In this document: positions 25,446 to 34,612 of the stretch, piece after piece | Layout of the letters: the number at the start of each line of letters is the position of its first letter | Position numbering within the stretch: the stretch's first letter is position 1 | Source: Methanomicrobiales archaeon | GTDB lineage: Archaea > Halobacteriota > Methanomicrobia > Methanomicrobiales > Methanospirillaceae | DNA: 34,949 nt | Assembly (NCBI GenBank): GCA_025350045.1 | Contig: JANXYM010000088.1 | Location: 1 to 34,949, forward strand | Reading direction: 5' to 3' | Program-made: the position numbers and the translations under genes | Notes under the pieces: generated by a model | Databases searched by the model: none | What the model was told of the DNA's origin: nothing | The model's input: the letters and a program-made list of their open reading frames with translations, nothing else

Positions 25446-26474
25446 ATGACCGCACGCCCGATTGTCTCTGATTGCCGGAGGAGACCAGTGCATGTTGCGG
25501 TTGCATTAGTGGTCGTGATGGTGGCGGTGCTGCTGGCGGCGGGGTGTTCAGGAGAAAATCCTAGTAATTTAACCCCGGGTAAATCTGCAATAAATAACAC
25601 CACTTCATCTATAACCACAATCCCGGTGATCACTATACCAATTCAAACGATCACCATAACTGTTCCTCCATCAGAATGCCCGGGAAAAAATTCAAAAATA
25701 AATTCCGTCTTGAGTGGGAATTCCTTTATTTTCTCTGGTACCGCTATTCGTCCCGAAGAGAATCTCGTGAGAATCTGGGTTTTCGGGGACAACTTTGCCC
25801 AATGGTTCAATAGTTCCGTCAGACCCGGCGTATTGAATACTATTTCACTGGACAGTATGCATACATCAAACCTGAAGAGCGGTACATATTATCTTCTCTA
25901 CCAATACTCCGAAAATGGAAGTCATTTTGATATCGATTTGAAAAATGCCAACTACCCAGACCAGGTCAAAAACAAAAAAGGGGATCTGATTCTTGATCTT
26001 CAGAGAGTTCGAACAGGTTTTGTGAAAAGTCTGGAAGCCCGGACAATTCTTGAACAAGCAATCAATACTCCGGGAAATAATGATCGATCAGACAATACGA
26101 CACTCATTGTTGAAGAACCCTGGATCATCATCAATCCATTGAAGGATGTCAAAAAGGGAACCTCATTTACAATAAATGGCACAACAAATCTTCCAACAAA
26201 TCGTCCCAAAAATATGAAATTGAAACTCACAATCTGGCCAACCAAACAAGACCCGCGCCGGTTACTGGGTGAACAGTCTGTTGAAGATTATGGCTCCGCT
26301 TTTTCCACATATCTGGATATTGAAAGTGGTGAGAATTGCACGAATACATTTTCTATTCTCGTTCCACCCTTAAACGCAAAAACCGGAGAATATTTCGTGT
26401 CTATGTTTGATTATGACTGGGATAAAGGGTACTCAGGACATGCTCAAAATGGAACAGTATTCAACATCAATTAG
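25446..26474 (+). CDS. Surface lipoprotein, unknown function
   Basis: 342 residues. Signal with lipobox VALVVVMVAVLLAAGCSGE, then a Thr/Ile-rich spacer (TTSSITTIPVITIPIQTITIT) and two beta-rich domains. The second begins around PWIIINPLKDVKKGTSFTINGTTNLP, a pattern seen in DUF3821-type domains of methanogen surface proteins. Many N-x-S/T sites suggest N-glycosylation. Start could be ATG 25446 or GTG 25488. It stands alone between R elements. Its codons are more AT-rich than the core genes. Confidence 0.65.
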   Translation: MTARPIVSDCRRRPVHVAVALVVVMVAVLLAAGCSGENPSNLTPGKSAINNTTSSITTIPVITIPIQTITITVPPSECPGKNSKINSVLSGNSFIFSGTAIRPEENLVRIWVFGDNFAQWFNSSVRPGVLNTISLDSMHTSNLKSGTYYLLYQYSENGSHFDIDLKNANYPDQVKNKKGDLILDLQRVRTGFVKSLEARTILEQAINTPGNNDRSDNTTLIVEEPWIIINPLKDVKKGTSFTINGTTNLPTNRPKNMKLKLTIWPTKQDPRRLLGEQSVEDYGSAFSTYLDIESGENCTNTFSILVPPLNAKTGEYFVSMFDYDWDKGYSGHAQNGTVFNIN

Positions 26475-26680: not shown

Positions 26681-28024
26681 TTATTTTACGATTTTACCAT
26701 ACCCTTTTTTTTCAAATTCGACTGCATCCTCTATATGTATTTCACTTGTGAGTCCGGCAAAATTTTGATACTTATATCCCCTTTGAGATTCAACTGTTGG
26801 CGTTGGTAACTCTGAAAAAAATTCAAACAATATTTTATAATTTTTTGGTAAAGTTTTTTTCTTCGTGATTTCTTTGTACAACTGAATCAATTTTTCTCTT
26901 TTTTCTACCCTTTTTTTCTCTACTTGTTCCCCTACATAATTCAAAACGGATCGAAAATTTGACTCTTCGGTCTCTAAATTGTTGATCTGGTCGTGAATTG
27001 AGGTTATCTGGGTTTCAGAAAATAAATTGAGAATTGGCTCTTCCTGCCCTTGGTCCATAGGATCTTCCCATACAAAACCATTTTGAGGAGATACAATTTT
27101 TTCCCAGGCATTCTCGAATGAATCAAAAGTTGAATATAAATAACTAATTCCTTTTAGCATACTTGAACGATTTTCCCATTCATTGACTTTAAAAAAGGCA
27201 TAACTATTTTTTATTTCATCTTCATATTGACAACATCTCGAACTAAAATTACAGAGTTTCTTCATTTCGGGTTTGGCAATATCCCTCAGTTTTAGTTTTT
27301 TCTGATAATTATTCTCAAAATTCCTGAATGCGGTTTCATACTCTCCCCTTAAAGTTGACTTGACCCAATCTGCAATATCGATAGCGAGGATTTCAGCGGT
27401 GTAAAGACAATTATCCTGAAGGAGTAATCCGATAGATCGGATTCCATGCTCAACAAACAATAATTGTTCACGATAAAGTGAGAACTCACTCTCATTAATG
27501 TAAGTATCAATGAAAATACAGGAATTACTGCTTGCGACTATTGTTGTATCATCATCGGGAAAAAATTTCAGGAAATTTTTCAGTACCCAATAAGATTCAA
27601 TTCCATCTCGACGATATTTACTTTCTCTTCGTTTGAGTTCCTCCAAATCAATAATGCTTAACTGAACTTCAAATACAATTTTTCTACCATCTTTCATTGC
27701 AAGAACATCAGCACGCCAATCTCCTGATGGCGATTGATATTCCGGTTGCACCCACCAACCTTCAGATTTGCAGATTTGGTAAATAAAATTTTTTAATTCC
27801 ATATGCTCCAGGGATTCCGGCACCCCCCCGCACTCGGCCGATTTAATAGCGTGATAAAAATGTTTTAGACCGTTCGGTGATATTCGAAGATGACCTTTGG
27901 CTCCACAACAGGTCATGGTGACATCAAGGCCTTTTTTATGTCGAAGTTTGAGGTCAGCCCAAGCTTCATCAGTTAAATCCGGACCAATTACGCGGTCGCC
28001 GTTAATTATTGCCGATAGTGGAAT
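26681..28024 (-). CDS. CoiA-like protein with putative nuclease domain
   Basis: About 447 residues. The N-terminal part (LSAIINGDRVIGPDLTDEAW, then LRHKKGLDVTMTCCGAKGH, LRISPNGLKHFYHA) matches the N-terminal domain of CoiA-like proteins. A PD-(D/E)XK-type nuclease core follows: LKNFIYQICKSEGW, then GDWRADVLAMKDGRKIVFEVQLS, where D and E-x-Q take the usual D and E-x-K places. The C-terminal 250 residues are coiled-coil-like and charged. The only ATG, 27916, would cut the conserved N-terminus. The frame is open to TAA 28048, and homology indicates a start at ATT 28022-28024, five bases after an AGGGA-like site. AT-rich codons suggest transfer. Confidence 0.75.
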   Translation of the reverse strand: MPLSAIINGDRVIGPDLTDEAWADLKLRHKKGLDVTMTCCGAKGHLRISPNGLKHFYHAIKSAECGGVPESLEHMELKNFIYQICKSEGWWVQPEYQSPSGDWRADVLAMKDGRKIVFEVQLSIIDLEELKRRESKYRRDGIESYWVLKNFLKFFPDDDTTIVASSNSCIFIDTYINESEFSLYREQLLFVEHGIRSIGLLLQDNCLYTAEILAIDIADWVKSTLRGEYETAFRNFENNYQKKLKLRDIAKPEMKKLCNFSSRCCQYEDEIKNSYAFFKVNEWENRSSMLKGISYLYSTFDSFENAWEKIVSPQNGFVWEDPMDQGQEEPILNLFSETQITSIHDQINNLETEESNFRSVLNYVGEQVEKKRVEKREKLIQLYKEITKKKTLPKNYKILFEFFSELPTPTVESQRGYKYQNFAGLTSEIHIEDAVEFEKKGYGKIVK

Positions 28025-28313: not shown

Positions 28314-28389
28314 GGGGAAAATAAAAAAAGGCTCAGTGAAAAAAGTTATGTCGATAATTTGATGCTAATTGAATTTTATTCTCATATAC

Positions 28390-29502
28390 ATGAGTTCGGT
28401 TGATTCAGTTATTATTCTAGGTGCAGGGGCCTCATTTTCCGACGGGGCTCCTCTCCAAAATGATTTAATAAAAGAATTTTGCTCAACTGCCCTTATTAGA
28501 AAACTGGGGTTCTCTAGTAAGGGAATCCCTATAGAGAAGTTGAGTGAAATAGAGATAAATCAATTAAGCCAGATAGAAAAATATTTTGATTTGTTTTGGG
28601 GAGCCGATCTATTATCCTCATTCGATAAGAAATTTTCATATCCAACTTTTGAAGATTGTTTAGGCATTTTAGATATTGCTCAAAACCGGAATGAAAGCTT
28701 TGGGCTAGAATATCGTTCGAAGTTGAATGAATTTCGAAATTCTTTGATTTTTTTAATCGCTAAAACCATCGAAGAAAAATTAACAGCGTCTGAATCTCAC
28801 AATCATGAGACGTTAATAAATAGGTTGGTAAAACAGGGTACTCTCAGATCTACAGCGTTCATAAGTTTAAATTATGATATAATCATTGATAACACACTTA
28901 CCGGGATTCGTAATTCAGATGGCTTTGATTTGGATTATGGTATTGAATTCATGAATTTTAAGAGAGACCCGAATTCGGATGAAAATTCCTGGGGGAGACC
29001 AAATCCAACAAAATCCATCCTTCTTTTCAAACTGCATGGTTCGTTAAATTGGCTTTATTGCCCAACTTGTAACCAAATCGAAATTACTCCAAAAATAAAA
29101 GGAGCAATTAAAGCATTTACTCAGTCAGAAAAATGCTATGCATGCGGAACACCGATGGAACCAATAATTGTTCCTCCGACATATTTTAAAGAGATGGAAA
29201 ATGTCTACCTCCAGCAAATATTCCAAAGGACTGATGAAATTCTTAGGAATTCTAAAAAGATATACATATGCGGATATTCTCTCCCAGATGCAGATTTACA
29301 TATAAAATATCTCTTGAAACGAGCAGAATTATTGAATAGGAATCCACTAGAAATTTTTATCATAAATAATCACAAAGGCAAAAAAAATCCAAAAAAGATA
29401 GATAAAAAGAAACGATTTCTGCAATTTTTTAAAAGAAAAACGATGGTTAAGTACACAGAGTTGAGCTTTGAAGATTTCTGTAGAGATGGAATACAAGATT
29501 GA
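28390..29502 (+). CDS. SIR2-family protein (probable defence NADase)
   Basis: 370 residues. NAD-binding SIR2 motifs: VIILGAGASFSDGAPL at the N-terminus, SLNYDIIIDN in the middle, and KLHGSLNWLYCP with the catalytic-type His. A zinc site follows, CPTCN and CYACG, and then ICGYSLPDADLHIKYLLKRA. Such stand-alone SIR2-like proteins often deplete NAD+ during phage infection in Thoeris, DSR and other systems, but no recognised partner gene is adjacent. ATG 28390 is preferred to 28369 because the SIR2 core begins right after it; there is no clear ribosome site, so the mRNA may be leaderless. AT-rich codons. Confidence 0.85.
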   Translation: MSSVDSVIILGAGASFSDGAPLQNDLIKEFCSTALIRKLGFSSKGIPIEKLSEIEINQLSQIEKYFDLFWGADLLSSFDKKFSYPTFEDCLGILDIAQNRNESFGLEYRSKLNEFRNSLIFLIAKTIEEKLTASESHNHETLINRLVKQGTLRSTAFISLNYDIIIDNTLTGIRNSDGFDLDYGIEFMNFKRDPNSDENSWGRPNPTKSILLFKLHGSLNWLYCPTCNQIEITPKIKGAIKAFTQSEKCYACGTPMEPIIVPPTYFKEMENVYLQQIFQRTDEILRNSKKIYICGYSLPDADLHIKYLLKRAELLNRNPLEIFIINNHKGKKNPKKIDKKKRFLQFFKRKTMVKYTELSFEDFCRDGIQD

Positions 29503-29954: not shown

Positions 29955-31529
29955 TTATTGATCTGTTGTTGCAAGTTTCTTCTCATATTCCGTCATTGCG
30001 GCTTCAATTTTCTTTTTGTAATTATCATCTTTAGTATAAATTCCGTAAATGTGTAGCTCAGTATTTTGGAGAAATTTAAATAATGAAGATGAATCATTCG
30101 TCAAAGAAACAGGTTCATTTTTTCCGTCAAAAATCTTAATCTTATGTTCAACAAATTCATCGTCTAAATCCCCATCTTTGGTTAATTTTGAGGGGCTAAG
30201 ACCTGTTATTGGATTTTCAATACGGGATGTGATATACCACTCTTTAGGAATTCCAGCTTGTTTAACGATATAATCGATTACTGCAGGATCGAAATATTTG
30301 ATTAATTTATGGGGTTTTTCACCATCCCTTTTTTCTATCCCTTGCAATATCATTTGCTCTTCTAAAACTCGCTTTAATGGGTCTCGATAAAGAACTTTTT
30401 TTACGAGATCTTTTAAAAATGCTGAAGAAACAGCCGGATTTTTTATTTGCTTAATTGATTTCGGATTGCTTTGGATTGCTTTTAGTTTTTCAAAAATATA
30501 GGAATCGTCATAATTCAGATAATCATTCTCTCTTGTTTCGTCAAACATCGCTACTAAATCGCCATATGAATGAACTTCCCCTCTTTCCAAGAGACCCGAA
30601 TAGATGCGTTCGGCCATCCGGTGAAAACCAGTAGTAGTTTTTTGGTAAATTACAGTACTATACAGGAAATATCTGGATAGTAAATAATGTTCAACCGCTT
30701 TCTGACCTTTTTTATTTATCACAAGAGGAGATGATCCTTCTCTTTGAGGTTTTTCAGTATAAAGATCGATATTCCTGATTATCTGTTCTAAATCAAAAAT
30801 TCCATACGGAACACCAGTCTGCTTTGAATCACGTAACAAATAATCGAATCGATCAGCATCCAATTCAGAATGGATGATAATTTTTTCCGGTCCTGGGTAT
30901 TCTCCAGCAATGATCTGTGCAATTTTAGTAATTTCATCTTTTGAGAACTCTGTTTTGAGAATAGAATGAAGACTGGATTTAAAAAGAATAATTCCTGCCA
31001 TTCTTTCATGGTGGGCAAAATCTAAGGTGGGGTTCCTTTGAGTGTACAAACTAAGATTAAGTTTATGTGATTTGCTTGAAGTGAGATTTGCATAAGGCAC
31101 TACATTATCATTAGATTTGGATAACTCAACAGTAATTTGTCCTGATTCCTTCGGTACTCTTTTTTTCGCGTCTTTTTTTACTGCCGATTCAATAATATGG
31201 GACCAGGGATAATGACCGATATCATGAAGCAGGGCAGAAATACGGACTATTTCACGGGCTCTGTCACTATTTAATTTATTTTTCTCCTGAAGCGAGACTA
31301 CCATTCTGTCTGCAATATGCATAACTCCTAATGAATGGTTAAACCGGTTGTGCAATGCACCGGGAAAAACATAATCGAGCAGTCCCAGCTGGCGAATATT
31401 GCGTAATCTCTGGAAAAGGGGCGAATCTACAAGCTGCCATTCGAAATCTGTTAACTGAATAAAACCGTGAATATTATCGAATATCCGTTGCTCGGAAAAA
31501 TCAAGTTTTTCAATTTTTGGTTTTGTCAT
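29955..31529 (-). CDS. HD-domain phosphohydrolase (dNTPase/SAMHD1-like)
   Basis: 524 residues. Metal-binding HD residues: H65 in NRFNHSLGVM, H102-D103 in ALLHDIGHYPWSH, the HHE at 173-175, and an aspartate in HSELDADRFDYLLRD at about 220-234. The opening (RIFDNIHGFIQLTDFEWQLVDSPLFQRLRNIRQLG) is typical of the dGTPase/SAMHD1-like and YwfO-type group. Known relatives hydrolyse dNTPs, and some restrict phage by draining nucleotide pools; the activity here is inferred. It begins seven bases after the YwgA-like gene on the same strand, so the two form an operon. AT-rich. Confidence 0.88.
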   Translation of the reverse strand: MTKPKIEKLDFSEQRIFDNIHGFIQLTDFEWQLVDSPLFQRLRNIRQLGLLDYVFPGALHNRFNHSLGVMHIADRMVVSLQEKNKLNSDRAREIVRISALLHDIGHYPWSHIIESAVKKDAKKRVPKESGQITVELSKSNDNVVPYANLTSSKSHKLNLSLYTQRNPTLDFAHHERMAGIILFKSSLHSILKTEFSKDEITKIAQIIAGEYPGPEKIIIHSELDADRFDYLLRDSKQTGVPYGIFDLEQIIRNIDLYTEKPQREGSSPLVINKKGQKAVEHYLLSRYFLYSTVIYQKTTTGFHRMAERIYSGLLERGEVHSYGDLVAMFDETRENDYLNYDDSYIFEKLKAIQSNPKSIKQIKNPAVSSAFLKDLVKKVLYRDPLKRVLEEQMILQGIEKRDGEKPHKLIKYFDPAVIDYIVKQAGIPKEWYITSRIENPITGLSPSKLTKDGDLDDEFVEHKIKIFDGKNEPVSLTNDSSSLFKFLQNTELHIYGIYTKDDNYKKKIEAAMTEYEKKLATTDQ

Positions 31530-31536
31530 AAAAAAA

Positions 31537-32067
31537 TCAGTTAAATTTGGTCAGATCCTTGCATGCGGAATCTATTATTTTCTGGATATTGTGGACATTT
31601 TTAAGATCTGGTTTAAGTGTGAGAAGTCTAACCCCTATTTGTGGGCATTTACTTTCACCAGGAGGAAGTGTTGTACGGAGATAATGAAGGGATGCAATAA
31701 CTTCCAGATAATTCGGATCGTCAAAATTAGACCCCAGAACACTCTTTAGATGTTCTAATCGCTTTATGACTGCCTCTTCATTTCCGAGTTTGATTGTCTC
31801 AGCTTGATTGAATAATTCCGGGTTATCTTTGATGTGGAATAGCGTGCGGGTCAATGCCGGAGAATACGGTCCGCGTACATACCAGCTATATCCGTACCCA
31901 AGACCCACTCCCAGATTCTGGGTAAGATAAATTAATTTCTGATATTTTAGACGATTATCGAAATCATCCATGAACACACCCACGAATCCCAAATGCTTTA
32001 GAATTCTGCTGAGAATGATTCCATTCTGATTTTCATTGGTATTATTTTCCACAATTGACCTCTTCAC
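31537..32067 (-). CDS. YwgA/GepA-like (Panacea-type) protein
   Basis: 176 residues from GTG 32067. The segment KYQKLIYLTQNLGVGLGYGYSWYVRGPYSPALTR is the hallmark of the YwgA/Panacea-like group, small helical proteins often serving as antitoxins or regulators of phage-related genes; the rest is helical. It is the first gene of an operon with the HD phosphohydrolase. In Bacillus subtilis the HD gene ywfO and ywgA are near neighbours, to my recollection, which suggests a conserved pair. The exact role (sensor, inhibitor or antitoxin of the HD enzyme) is unknown. Confidence 0.65.
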   Translation of the reverse strand: MKRSIVENNTNENQNGIILSRILKHLGFVGVFMDDFDNRLKYQKLIYLTQNLGVGLGYGYSWYVRGPYSPALTRTLFHIKDNPELFNQAETIKLGNEEAVIKRLEHLKSVLGSNFDDPNYLEVIASLHYLRTTLPPGESKCPQIGVRLLTLKPDLKNVHNIQKIIDSACKDLTKFN

Positions 32068-32769: not shown

Positions 32770-32778
32770 ATATATATG
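32770..32778 (+). promoter_or_regulatory. TATA box for the retron RNA
   Basis: atatatatg is centred about 24 bases before 32797-32799, where the left pairing arm (a1) of the retron RNA begins. Archaeal transcription starts at this distance, so the RNA 5' end would coincide with the start of a1. Confidence 0.55.
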
Positions 32779-32796
32779 AGATAAATAAATAAGAAT

Positions 32797-32971
32797 CAAG
32801 GATTGTCTTTCGCTTTGAACTCATCTTAGGCGTAAGATGATGTGTGGTGTTACGCCACGCAAATGGATTACTTACCGAAGTGCAAGCACTTGATCATACG
32901 CAGTCCTGATGAAAGCTTCGGCCTTCATCACCGAAAAGTCCCGAGGACTTTAGGAAAGACATCCTTTTTTT
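32797..32971 (+). ncRNA. Retron msr-msd RNA (putative)
   Basis: About 175 bases directly upstream of the RT gene. The ends pair: AAGGAT-T-GTCTTTC at 32798-32811 with GAAAGACATCCTT at 32954-32966 (a1/a2, 13 pairs with one bulge). Inside: TCATCTTA-ggcg-TAAGATGA (32821-32840), TGTGTGGTG-tta-CGCCACGCA (32841-32861), AAGTG-caag-CACTT (32878-32891), a GATGAA stem with a C(UUCG)G tetraloop (32908-32929), and AAAGTCC-cga-GGACTTT (32935-32951). AGTCCT (32902-32907) could instead pair with AGGACT (32944-32949), enclosing the UUCG stem like an msd hairpin. The branching G is not certain. A T run at 32965-32971 follows. Confidence 0.72.
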
Positions 32972-32989
32972 AATAATCGAAGGATAAAT

Positions 32990-34612
32990 ATGGAAAACAA
33001 ACCTCTTCTCAAAATAGGACAACTTAAAAAATTTCTGAATTCAGTCAAACCAATAATTTCTCAGTTAGAATTTGAGACAGAGAAAAACTCCTTCAAAAAG
33101 TTACGCTGCAATGAATTACCATATATTTATGATTTAAACCATCTCGCGAATTTATGCGACATTTCAGCGGATCAATTATCTCTTTTCGTCACCGATAAAA
33201 GAAAAGCATATGCCTCATTTAAAATTCCTAAGAAAAATGGGACATTAAGAGAAATTCATGCACCTTGTTTTCAATTAAAATGGGTTCAACGCTGGATACT
33301 CGATGAAATTTTATACAATCTTGATCCTGGTGATTATTCGCACGGGTTCATCCCAGATCGTTCAATAATTACAAATGCATCCGTCCATGTTGGAGAAGAG
33401 TTAGTTTTGAATATTGATCTAAAAGACTTTTTTCCAAATATCAAAACAAATCGAATCGTGGGCCTATTCAACAAAATGGGATATACAAAAAAAACAGCCG
33501 TTTTACTAGCAGAGATTTGCACATTCGAATGGGCTTTACCGCAAGGTGCACCTACAAGCCCGATGCTATCAAATTTGATCGCGTGGCATTTGGATGTTCA
33601 TTTGGCAGAATTTTGCGAAAAGCGTGGATTAAACTATTCAAGATATGCCGATGACATCTCAATTTCTGGTCCACGAATTCTACCAAAATATAAAACATTG
33701 ATTTTCCGTATTATCGAAATTGAAGGTTTTAAAATAAATTATGAAAAAGTAAGGTTACATGATAGAGGATCAAGTCAAAGAGTAACTGGATTAGTCGTAA
33801 ATGAAAAAGTAAGTATTGAACGAAGGAAAAAAAAATTTCTGCGTGCTATTGTCTACAATATTGTGAAAAATGGTCCGCTTGCTGAAAATCGAACAAATGA
33901 CCCATTTTTTAGAGAAAAAATTTTAGGCTTACTTGGGTTTGCGAAAACGGTTGATCCAATATTCGCCAATCCACTTCTTGAAAAACTTAGGACTGTTAAT
34001 TGGAATGAGAGAGAAATAAAAAAGGAAATTTCAATTGAGAGAGGATTGGATTTAAGGTTATTAAAAGAAAGTCACGATAATTTAATTAGTTTTGATCAAT
34101 TGCAAATATTCGAAAATGTTTGTAAATTATCTGATGTAAAATGGGATGAGGCATTAATCAATCATTTAGAGAAAATGCAGGAAAAATGTGCGGACCAATC
34201 AGATGAAGAATGTTTAGATTGCCTGCATAGGAAAAATGACAATACGAAATATTGCATTAAACATGTTTTAGGTTTTTTTACCGGAAATACTTGCGGTTCA
34301 CATCACGGACATGAAGTATCTGATTTGTTTTCAATTACAAAGATTAAAGAAAATCAAGTATTTGTAACATTCATTGCAAAATCTGGAAAGATGAAAAGAA
34401 GTGAAAAAGATACATTATTACGTCAAGTATTTTGGAATACTGCTTATAATGATATCAACGTAATATCAATTGTTACGAATAGATTTTTAGATACACAATC
34501 AATTTTAGACATAATCCGACTTATAAAAAGTTGTAATAAGGATCAAATGTGCTGTTTAATTATGAGAAATGAGATGGGACAAATTTTAGTCACATATATT
34601 GAACGTTTTTAA
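32990..34612 (+). CDS. Retron-type reverse transcriptase with C-terminal extension
   Basis: 540 residues; retron RTs are usually near 300-330. RT domain at about 70-300: NAxxH at 129-133 (NASVH), DLKDFFPNI at 143-151, LPQGAPTSPMLSN at 183-195, catalytic YADD at 219-222, and VTG at 265-267. NAxxH and VTG are the retron hallmarks. After about residue 340 comes an extra module: a Cys cluster C400, C408, C411, C422, C435 that may bind zinc, then HHGHEVSDLF (438-447), VFVTFIAKSGK (457-467) and an alpha/beta tail. It could be a built-in effector, perhaps nuclease-like, but I do not recognise the family. AAGGA at 32980-32984 precedes the ATG. The codons are strongly AT-rich. Confidence 0.9.
   Translation: MENKPLLKIGQLKKFLNSVKPIISQLEFETEKNSFKKLRCNELPYIYDLNHLANLCDISADQLSLFVTDKRKAYASFKIPKKNGTLREIHAPCFQLKWVQRWILDEILYNLDPGDYSHGFIPDRSIITNASVHVGEELVLNIDLKDFFPNIKTNRIVGLFNKMGYTKKTAVLLAEICTFEWALPQGAPTSPMLSNLIAWHLDVHLAEFCEKRGLNYSRYADDISISGPRILPKYKTLIFRIIEIEGFKINYEKVRLHDRGSSQRVTGLVVNEKVSIERRKKKFLRAIVYNIVKNGPLAENRTNDPFFREKILGLLGFAKTVDPIFANPLLEKLRTVNWNEREIKKEISIERGLDLRLLKESHDNLISFDQLQIFENVCKLSDVKWDEALINHLEKMQEKCADQSDEECLDCLHRKNDNTKYCIKHVLGFFTGNTCGSHHGHEVSDLFSITKIKENQVFVTFIAKSGKMKRSEKDTLLRQVFWNTAYNDINVISIVTNRFLDTQSILDIIRLIKSCNKDQMCCLIMRNEMGQILVTYIERF

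Follow-up and report, generated by a model that had tools for sequence, protein, structure and literature searches.

Retrons have, to our knowledge, been studied almost only in bacteria. In Retron-Eco1 (Ec86), the effector is encoded by a separate gene. Type III-A retrons are marked by genes for a phosphoribosyltransferase (PRTase) effector and a DNA-binding protein (PMC12548924), and in Retron-Eco2 (Ec67, type I-C) the ncRNA is followed by a single fusion protein of RT and effector, in which the RNA-DNA complex restrains a C-terminal Toprim RNase (PMC12405507). A retron RT in an archaeon has been known since 2003: Rest and Mindell (2003; cited in PMC6868368) reported one in Methanosarcina acetivorans and, as far as their work is represented in the citing paper, reported the RT alone. 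An earlier reading of the present DNA from its letters (the sequence-only reading), which proposed a retron at the locus described here, missed this prior report. In our literature search, outside of which the Mestre 2020 classification lies, we found no description of an ncRNA, a promoter or a C-terminal domain for the M. acetivorans RT, which probably belongs to the same family as the RT described here.

The locus lies in a window (the whole stretch of DNA analysed) that is one entire 34.9 kb contig of a 2.53 Mb methanogen genome in 121 contigs, and we are highly confident that it comprises a retron RNA together with its cognate retron RT. The best RT profile is that of type III-A and, as in the type III-A retron of Rhizobium (L032; the RT of Priestia L030 is similar), the ncRNA lies directly upstream of the RT and has a G after the a1 arm and a G before the a2 arm. 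In contrast to Rhizobium L032, where a gene for a phosphoribosyltransferase and a further, small gene lie upstream, the PRTase/HTH operon genes of type III-A are absent upstream of the window RT, and an effector-like domain is instead fused to the RT. The order of ncRNA and single RT-effector fusion protein is that of Retron-Eco2; however, the window protein carries four cysteines (Cys4) and a PD-(D/E)XK-like domain in place of Toprim, which a Pfam scan did not detect in it, its RT is, by profile, nearer to III-A, and the I-C profiles match the RT part only. The closest solved proteins are the RTs of Ec86 (1.8e-50) and Ec67 (1.4e-37), and the ncRNA of Ec86 differs in sequence from that of the window. 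The fusion of the RT to the Cys4 and PD-(D/E)XK-like domain, the other C-terminal domain found in close relatives and the missing III-A upstream genes are new beyond the sequence-only reading.

Structure and conservation of the RNA

The promoter and RNA features of the window are:

32770-32778, + strand: archaeal TATA-like box ATATATATG, putative retron promoter, recognized by sequence and by an offset before a1 that is conserved among relatives
32798-32811, + strand: a1 arm, pairs with a2 (folding; compensatory changes among relatives)
32812, + strand: candidate branching (priming) guanosine in the context UCGC (G directly after a1 in 11/11 loci)
32821-32840, + strand: msr stem P2, 8 pairs (both-side changes in 6/8 among relatives)
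32841-32861, + strand: msr stem P3, UGUGUGGUGUUACGCCACGCA with AAUG after it, the best-conserved part (near-invariant in 11 loci; 96% paired)
32878-32891, + strand: stem P4 (folding; 86% paired among relatives)
32908-32929, + strand: stem P5 with a cUUCGg tetraloop (folding; hairpin here in all relatives, variable in length and sequence)
32935-32951, + strand: stem P6, adjoining a2 (a hairpin in this position in every relative; 3 both-side-changed pairs; 89.5% paired)
32953, + strand: G before a2 (in all 11 archaeal loci and two bacterial relatives)
32954-32966, + strand: a2 arm, pairs with a1 (folding; compensatory changes among relatives)
32965-32971, + strand: seven-T run after a2 (sequence; not conserved among relatives)

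Folding yielded a minimum free energy of -59.5 kcal/mol versus -40.4 +/- 4.1 kcal/mol for dinucleotide shuffles (z -4.7; 0/200 as good) and recovered the architecture proposed in the sequence-only reading: the arms a1 and a2 form 13 pairs, from A32798-T32966 to C32811-G32954, with T32804 as the single bulge; the five stems P2-P6 are enclosed between them; and one of these, P5, has the UUCG tetraloop (TTCG, 32917-32920) on a C-G closing pair. P6 is likely the first part to be copied into cDNA, and P5 is likely part of the reverse-transcribed msd; both hairpins, which may correspond to the long msd hairpin of retrons, are found in all loci, although the limits of the msd are not definable by sequence. 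The ncRNA matched no family in an Rfam search of the window at gathering thresholds.

A covariance model built from ten relatives with the window left out (R2) matched 32800-32964 on the + strand of the window with 85.7 bits and an E-value of 4.3e-19, with zero consensus pairs marked as non-standard in the alignment, and this was its sole match in the whole 2.5 Mb genome. In other genomes, every one of the strong matches (E < 1e-20) lies beside an RT gene, and an RNA of the same build is present upstream of the RT in 11/11 methanogen loci. The window RNA has ~50% base identity to any relative, yet standard pairs make up 93% of pair cells. Among the eleven loci, 20 of the 39 pairs show a change on both sides, and the count of compensated cells is 38 versus 10.1 +/- 2.6 in shuffles (0/2000); RNAalifold independently detected both-side change in 18/32 pairs. 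Because many of the related loci belong to one genus, the number of cells counted overstates the number of independent covariation events. The closing helix itself occurs as AGUUGCYCUCA/UGAGGGCAACU, AGUUGUCCUCA/UGAGGACAACU and AGUUAUCCUUA/UAAGGAUAACU in relatives and as AAGGAUUGUCUUUC/GAAAGACAUCCUU in the window. A lack of covariation in homologous loci had been named in the sequence-only reading as the outcome that would speak against it; the compensatory changes found are strong.

The TATA box read from the letters is present as ATATATATG, and the centre of its core lies ~24.5 bp before a1, a distance in the usual archaeal range. When TATA-like octamers are scored across the 11 loci, the mean peaks ~24-26 bp before a1, the score at that offset is higher than in all 1000 dinucleotide-preserving shuffles, and a TATA-like box lies ~24 bp before a1 in most of the loci. 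The Methanosarcina loci are related and not fully independent, and their shared descent weakens this evidence, while their divergence keeps it from vanishing. We infer that transcription starts at or beside a1. Scans for sigma-70-type promoters and for intrinsic terminators were both empty; the seven-T run possibly represents an archaeal terminator or merely the leader of the RT mRNA.

The arrangement of a G directly after a1 and a G directly before a2 is common to all 11 archaeal loci and to the bacterial loci Priestia L030 and Rhizobium L032. In published retrons, the priming guanosine is located at this place in the contexts UAGC, CAGA, CAGC, GAGC and ACGC (PMC6868368). The contexts in the archaeal loci are CAGU, CAGA, CAGC, UAGA and UGGA, and UCGC in the window, which is not the commonest retron form. 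Judged by its position, G32812 is the candidate branching guanosine, at which the branching chemistry of retrons would take place.

The RT and its fused C-terminal domain

The RNA is followed by a single reading frame with two parts:

32990-34612, + strand: fusion protein of 540 aa, retron RT and C-terminal effector-like domain (profiles, motifs)
33998-34609, + strand: C-terminal domain, residues 337-540, predicted PD-(D/E)XK-like nuclease (alignment A4, model, weak Foldseek matches)

The retron RT occupies the first ~340 residues. PADLOC RT_III-A is its best profile (3.9e-100) and RT_XIII the second, a ranking by profile score and not by a full RT tree, and NCBIfam retron_St85_RT matches above its cut-off. 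The RT motifs by which retrons are recognized are present and invariant among relatives, i.e. NAxxH at residues 129-133, YADD at 219-222 and VTG at 265-267; NAxxH and VTG are specific to retron RTs (definitions in PMC6868368). RT profile, motifs, solved structures and the a1-G/G-a2 arrangement thus agree with the retron layout that the sequence-only reading had expected from an ncRNA and a neighbouring RT.

Neither Pfam nor PADLOC has a family that matches the C-terminal ~200 residues. In alignment A4 of eight sequences, Cys 400, 408, 411 and 422 are invariant and are followed by an equally invariant HHGHE-x2-D ... FxxK ... Q pattern (E442, D445, K464 and Q479). The AlphaFold model of the domain has an alpha-beta topology (pLDDT 71.4), and in Foldseek searches of two fold libraries proteins of the PD-(D/E)XK fold are enriched near the top, including FokI, BamHI, MspJI, SfsA, viral RPB5 and phage restriction endonucleases, all of them at sub-significant E-values above 0.001. 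Because of these E-values, and because the usual acidic residue two positions before the lysine is missing (FIAK), the assignment as a nuclease is weak; we consider a PD-(D/E)XK-like nuclease fold probable.

Full-length relatives that are 45-48% identical to the window protein are found in L002 (another family of the same order), in L016-L019 (Methanosarcinaceae; L016 48%) and in METP1 (L027), and the fused architecture is thus common to the Methanosarcinaceae and a second family of the order to which the window belongs. In L020, L021 and L023, the RT is ~54-55% identical to that of the window and the C-terminal domain is different, with a PD-(D/E)XK-like motif of the D...EFK type (TDEG...DFKF...AEFKL); in L023 it is followed by ~290 further residues with a very weak match to carbon-nitrogen hydrolases. 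When the profiles of the two C-terminal types were compared with each other, only the linker aligned, and we therefore treat them as different domains; the predicted model of the second type (pLDDT 47.9) is too poor for use. Since nearly the same RT and RNA occur with two C-terminal domains, the effector end has been swapped at least once, a lower bound that we adopt because the RT-domain tree is mostly unresolved.

Patterns from the C-terminal peptide detected three archaeal loci only and zero viral ones among the genome and viral contigs; whole-RT peptide patterns matched nothing in the same contigs, and a search of plasmids gave no copy of the C-terminal domain. Several further archaeal loci were observed. 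The 474-aa frame of L061 (G418:C91) has no RT and is an otherwise unrelated archaeal protein without a family match, and its C-terminus is the same domain of Cys4 and HxGxE-x2-D...K...RQ. In L024-L026 (G571:C17), the RNA looks intact and the RT frame is broken by shifts and a stop, by decay or by an assembly error. The retron-like RT of L022 (G420), also archaeal, is more distant (35% identical), and complementary ends of its own, GGAGAGGGCCA/TGGCCCTCTCC, lie upstream.

Genomic setting, proposed mechanism and alternatives

Between positions 26000 and 34949, the GC content of the window is 33-42% versus 48-61% in its remainder. Besides the retron, this GC-poor stretch contains:

26681-27916, - strand: gene with a CoiA nuclease domain
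28369-29502, + strand: SIR2-like gene
29955-31529, - strand: HD/dGTPase-like gene
31537-32067, - strand: DarG-like gene (weak match)

The stretch, including the retron, is likely a defence island. The genes directly 5' of the retron are on the opposite strand or unrelated. Elsewhere among the window proteins, one matches an S-layer glycoprotein family named for Methanoculleus (MEMAR) with a score under the cut-off of the model, and this match suggests that the contig is archaeal.

Combining the RNA, promoter and protein data, we suggest a single-operon archaeal retron with a fused nuclease-like effector that is restrained by msDNA, and we regard this explanation as a whole as very likely. In this model, (i) the TATA box would drive transcription of an RNA with its 5' end at or next to a1, (ii) the a1/a2 helix would close this RNA, with G32812 exposed at the junction, (iii) the N-terminal RT domain would bind the msr, i.e. 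P2/P3 together with the conserved AAAUG region, and (iv) cDNA synthesis would be primed from the 2'-OH of G32812 and copying would run back from beside a2 through P6 and P5 to give branched msDNA. Judging from the anatomy common to known retrons, branched cDNA is very probably made. By analogy with the RT-Toprim fusion of Retron-Eco2, the RNA-DNA molecule would remain on the fusion protein and keep the C-terminal nuclease-like domain inactive; viral damage to the msDNA, or its remodelling by a virus, would free the domain and cause growth stop or death of the host. It is reasonably likely that the C-terminal domain acts in anti-viral defence.

With its start codon at 32990, the RT gene begins 23 bases after a2, and RNA and RT could share an mRNA, as they would if the RNA served this gene as a cis-acting leader (an autoregulatory 5' UTR) and not as a cDNA template. 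We consider such a leader very improbable, given that the end-closing helix, the G/G junction and the msr-like core are retron anatomy, that the distance from RNA to RT start varies widely between relatives and that a retron-type RT is encoded next to it. An RT is likewise combined with a structured RNA in some DRT systems, and the Drt2 profile gives a very weak match (8.4e-10) here; nevertheless, a non-retron defence RT of the DRT/UG class, with its own ncRNA and with cDNA made otherwise, is hardly credible in view of the retron profiles, which score ~90 orders of magnitude better, the presence of NAxxH and VTG, and the a1/a2 helix with its junction G.

The C-terminal domain leaves more room for doubt. 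In a true retron it could be a DNA-binding or structural module, with the toxic step performed by another gene; the lack of a family match, the sub-significant fold matches and the atypical motif would fit such a module, and the adjoining SIR2-like and HD genes could be partners. We nonetheless think it unlikely, as the invariant HxGxE-x2-D-...-K-...-Q residues are also kept in the otherwise unrelated L061 and as relatives swap in a domain with a D...ExK motif, which is expected for exchangeable effectors.

The analysis delimits an archaeal retron family by its RNA, promoter, RT, fused effector and covariation support. An RT with exchangeable C-terminal domains on one type of RNA would provide a clean test of the sensing part versus the killing part, and the system is a candidate producer of ssDNA for genome editing in archaea. 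M. acetivorans is culturable and genetically tractable and appears to hold a close relative; therefore, archaeal msDNA and its anti-viral use are directly testable.

A possible archaeal lineage and RT-less RNA copies

We tentatively suggest that these loci form a separate archaeal lineage of retrons, without the PRTase operon, with swapped effectors at the C-terminus of the RT and with archaeal promoters, from which an msr-like RNA has spread without an RT beside a gene for a membrane-anchored Mrr protein in Methanosarcina; this scenario is possible, and we would not call it probable.

The covariance model also detected weaker RNA copies without an RT in five Methanosarcina genomes (G484, G518, G418, G534 and G500), with E-values of ~1e-9 to 1e-3 per genome search. 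Three of the five genomes have no such RT. The copies are located at L042:1501-1657, L042:3036-3157 (= L047:1501-1687), L045:1501-1650 and 2574-2694, and in L044, L046 and L043. The strongest one, L041:1501-1670 (G418:C124:78240-78409; 76 bits), has no Mrr gene or RT within ~8 kb. Most of the RT-less copies adjoin a gene for a protein with a hydrophobic N-terminus and an Mrr_cat endonuclease domain (PF04471, 7.7e-31), and in at least two genomes this gene is flanked by RNA copies on both sides. In the RT-less copies, the a2 arm and P3 have mostly disappeared; these copies may be decayed retrons or re-used RNA.
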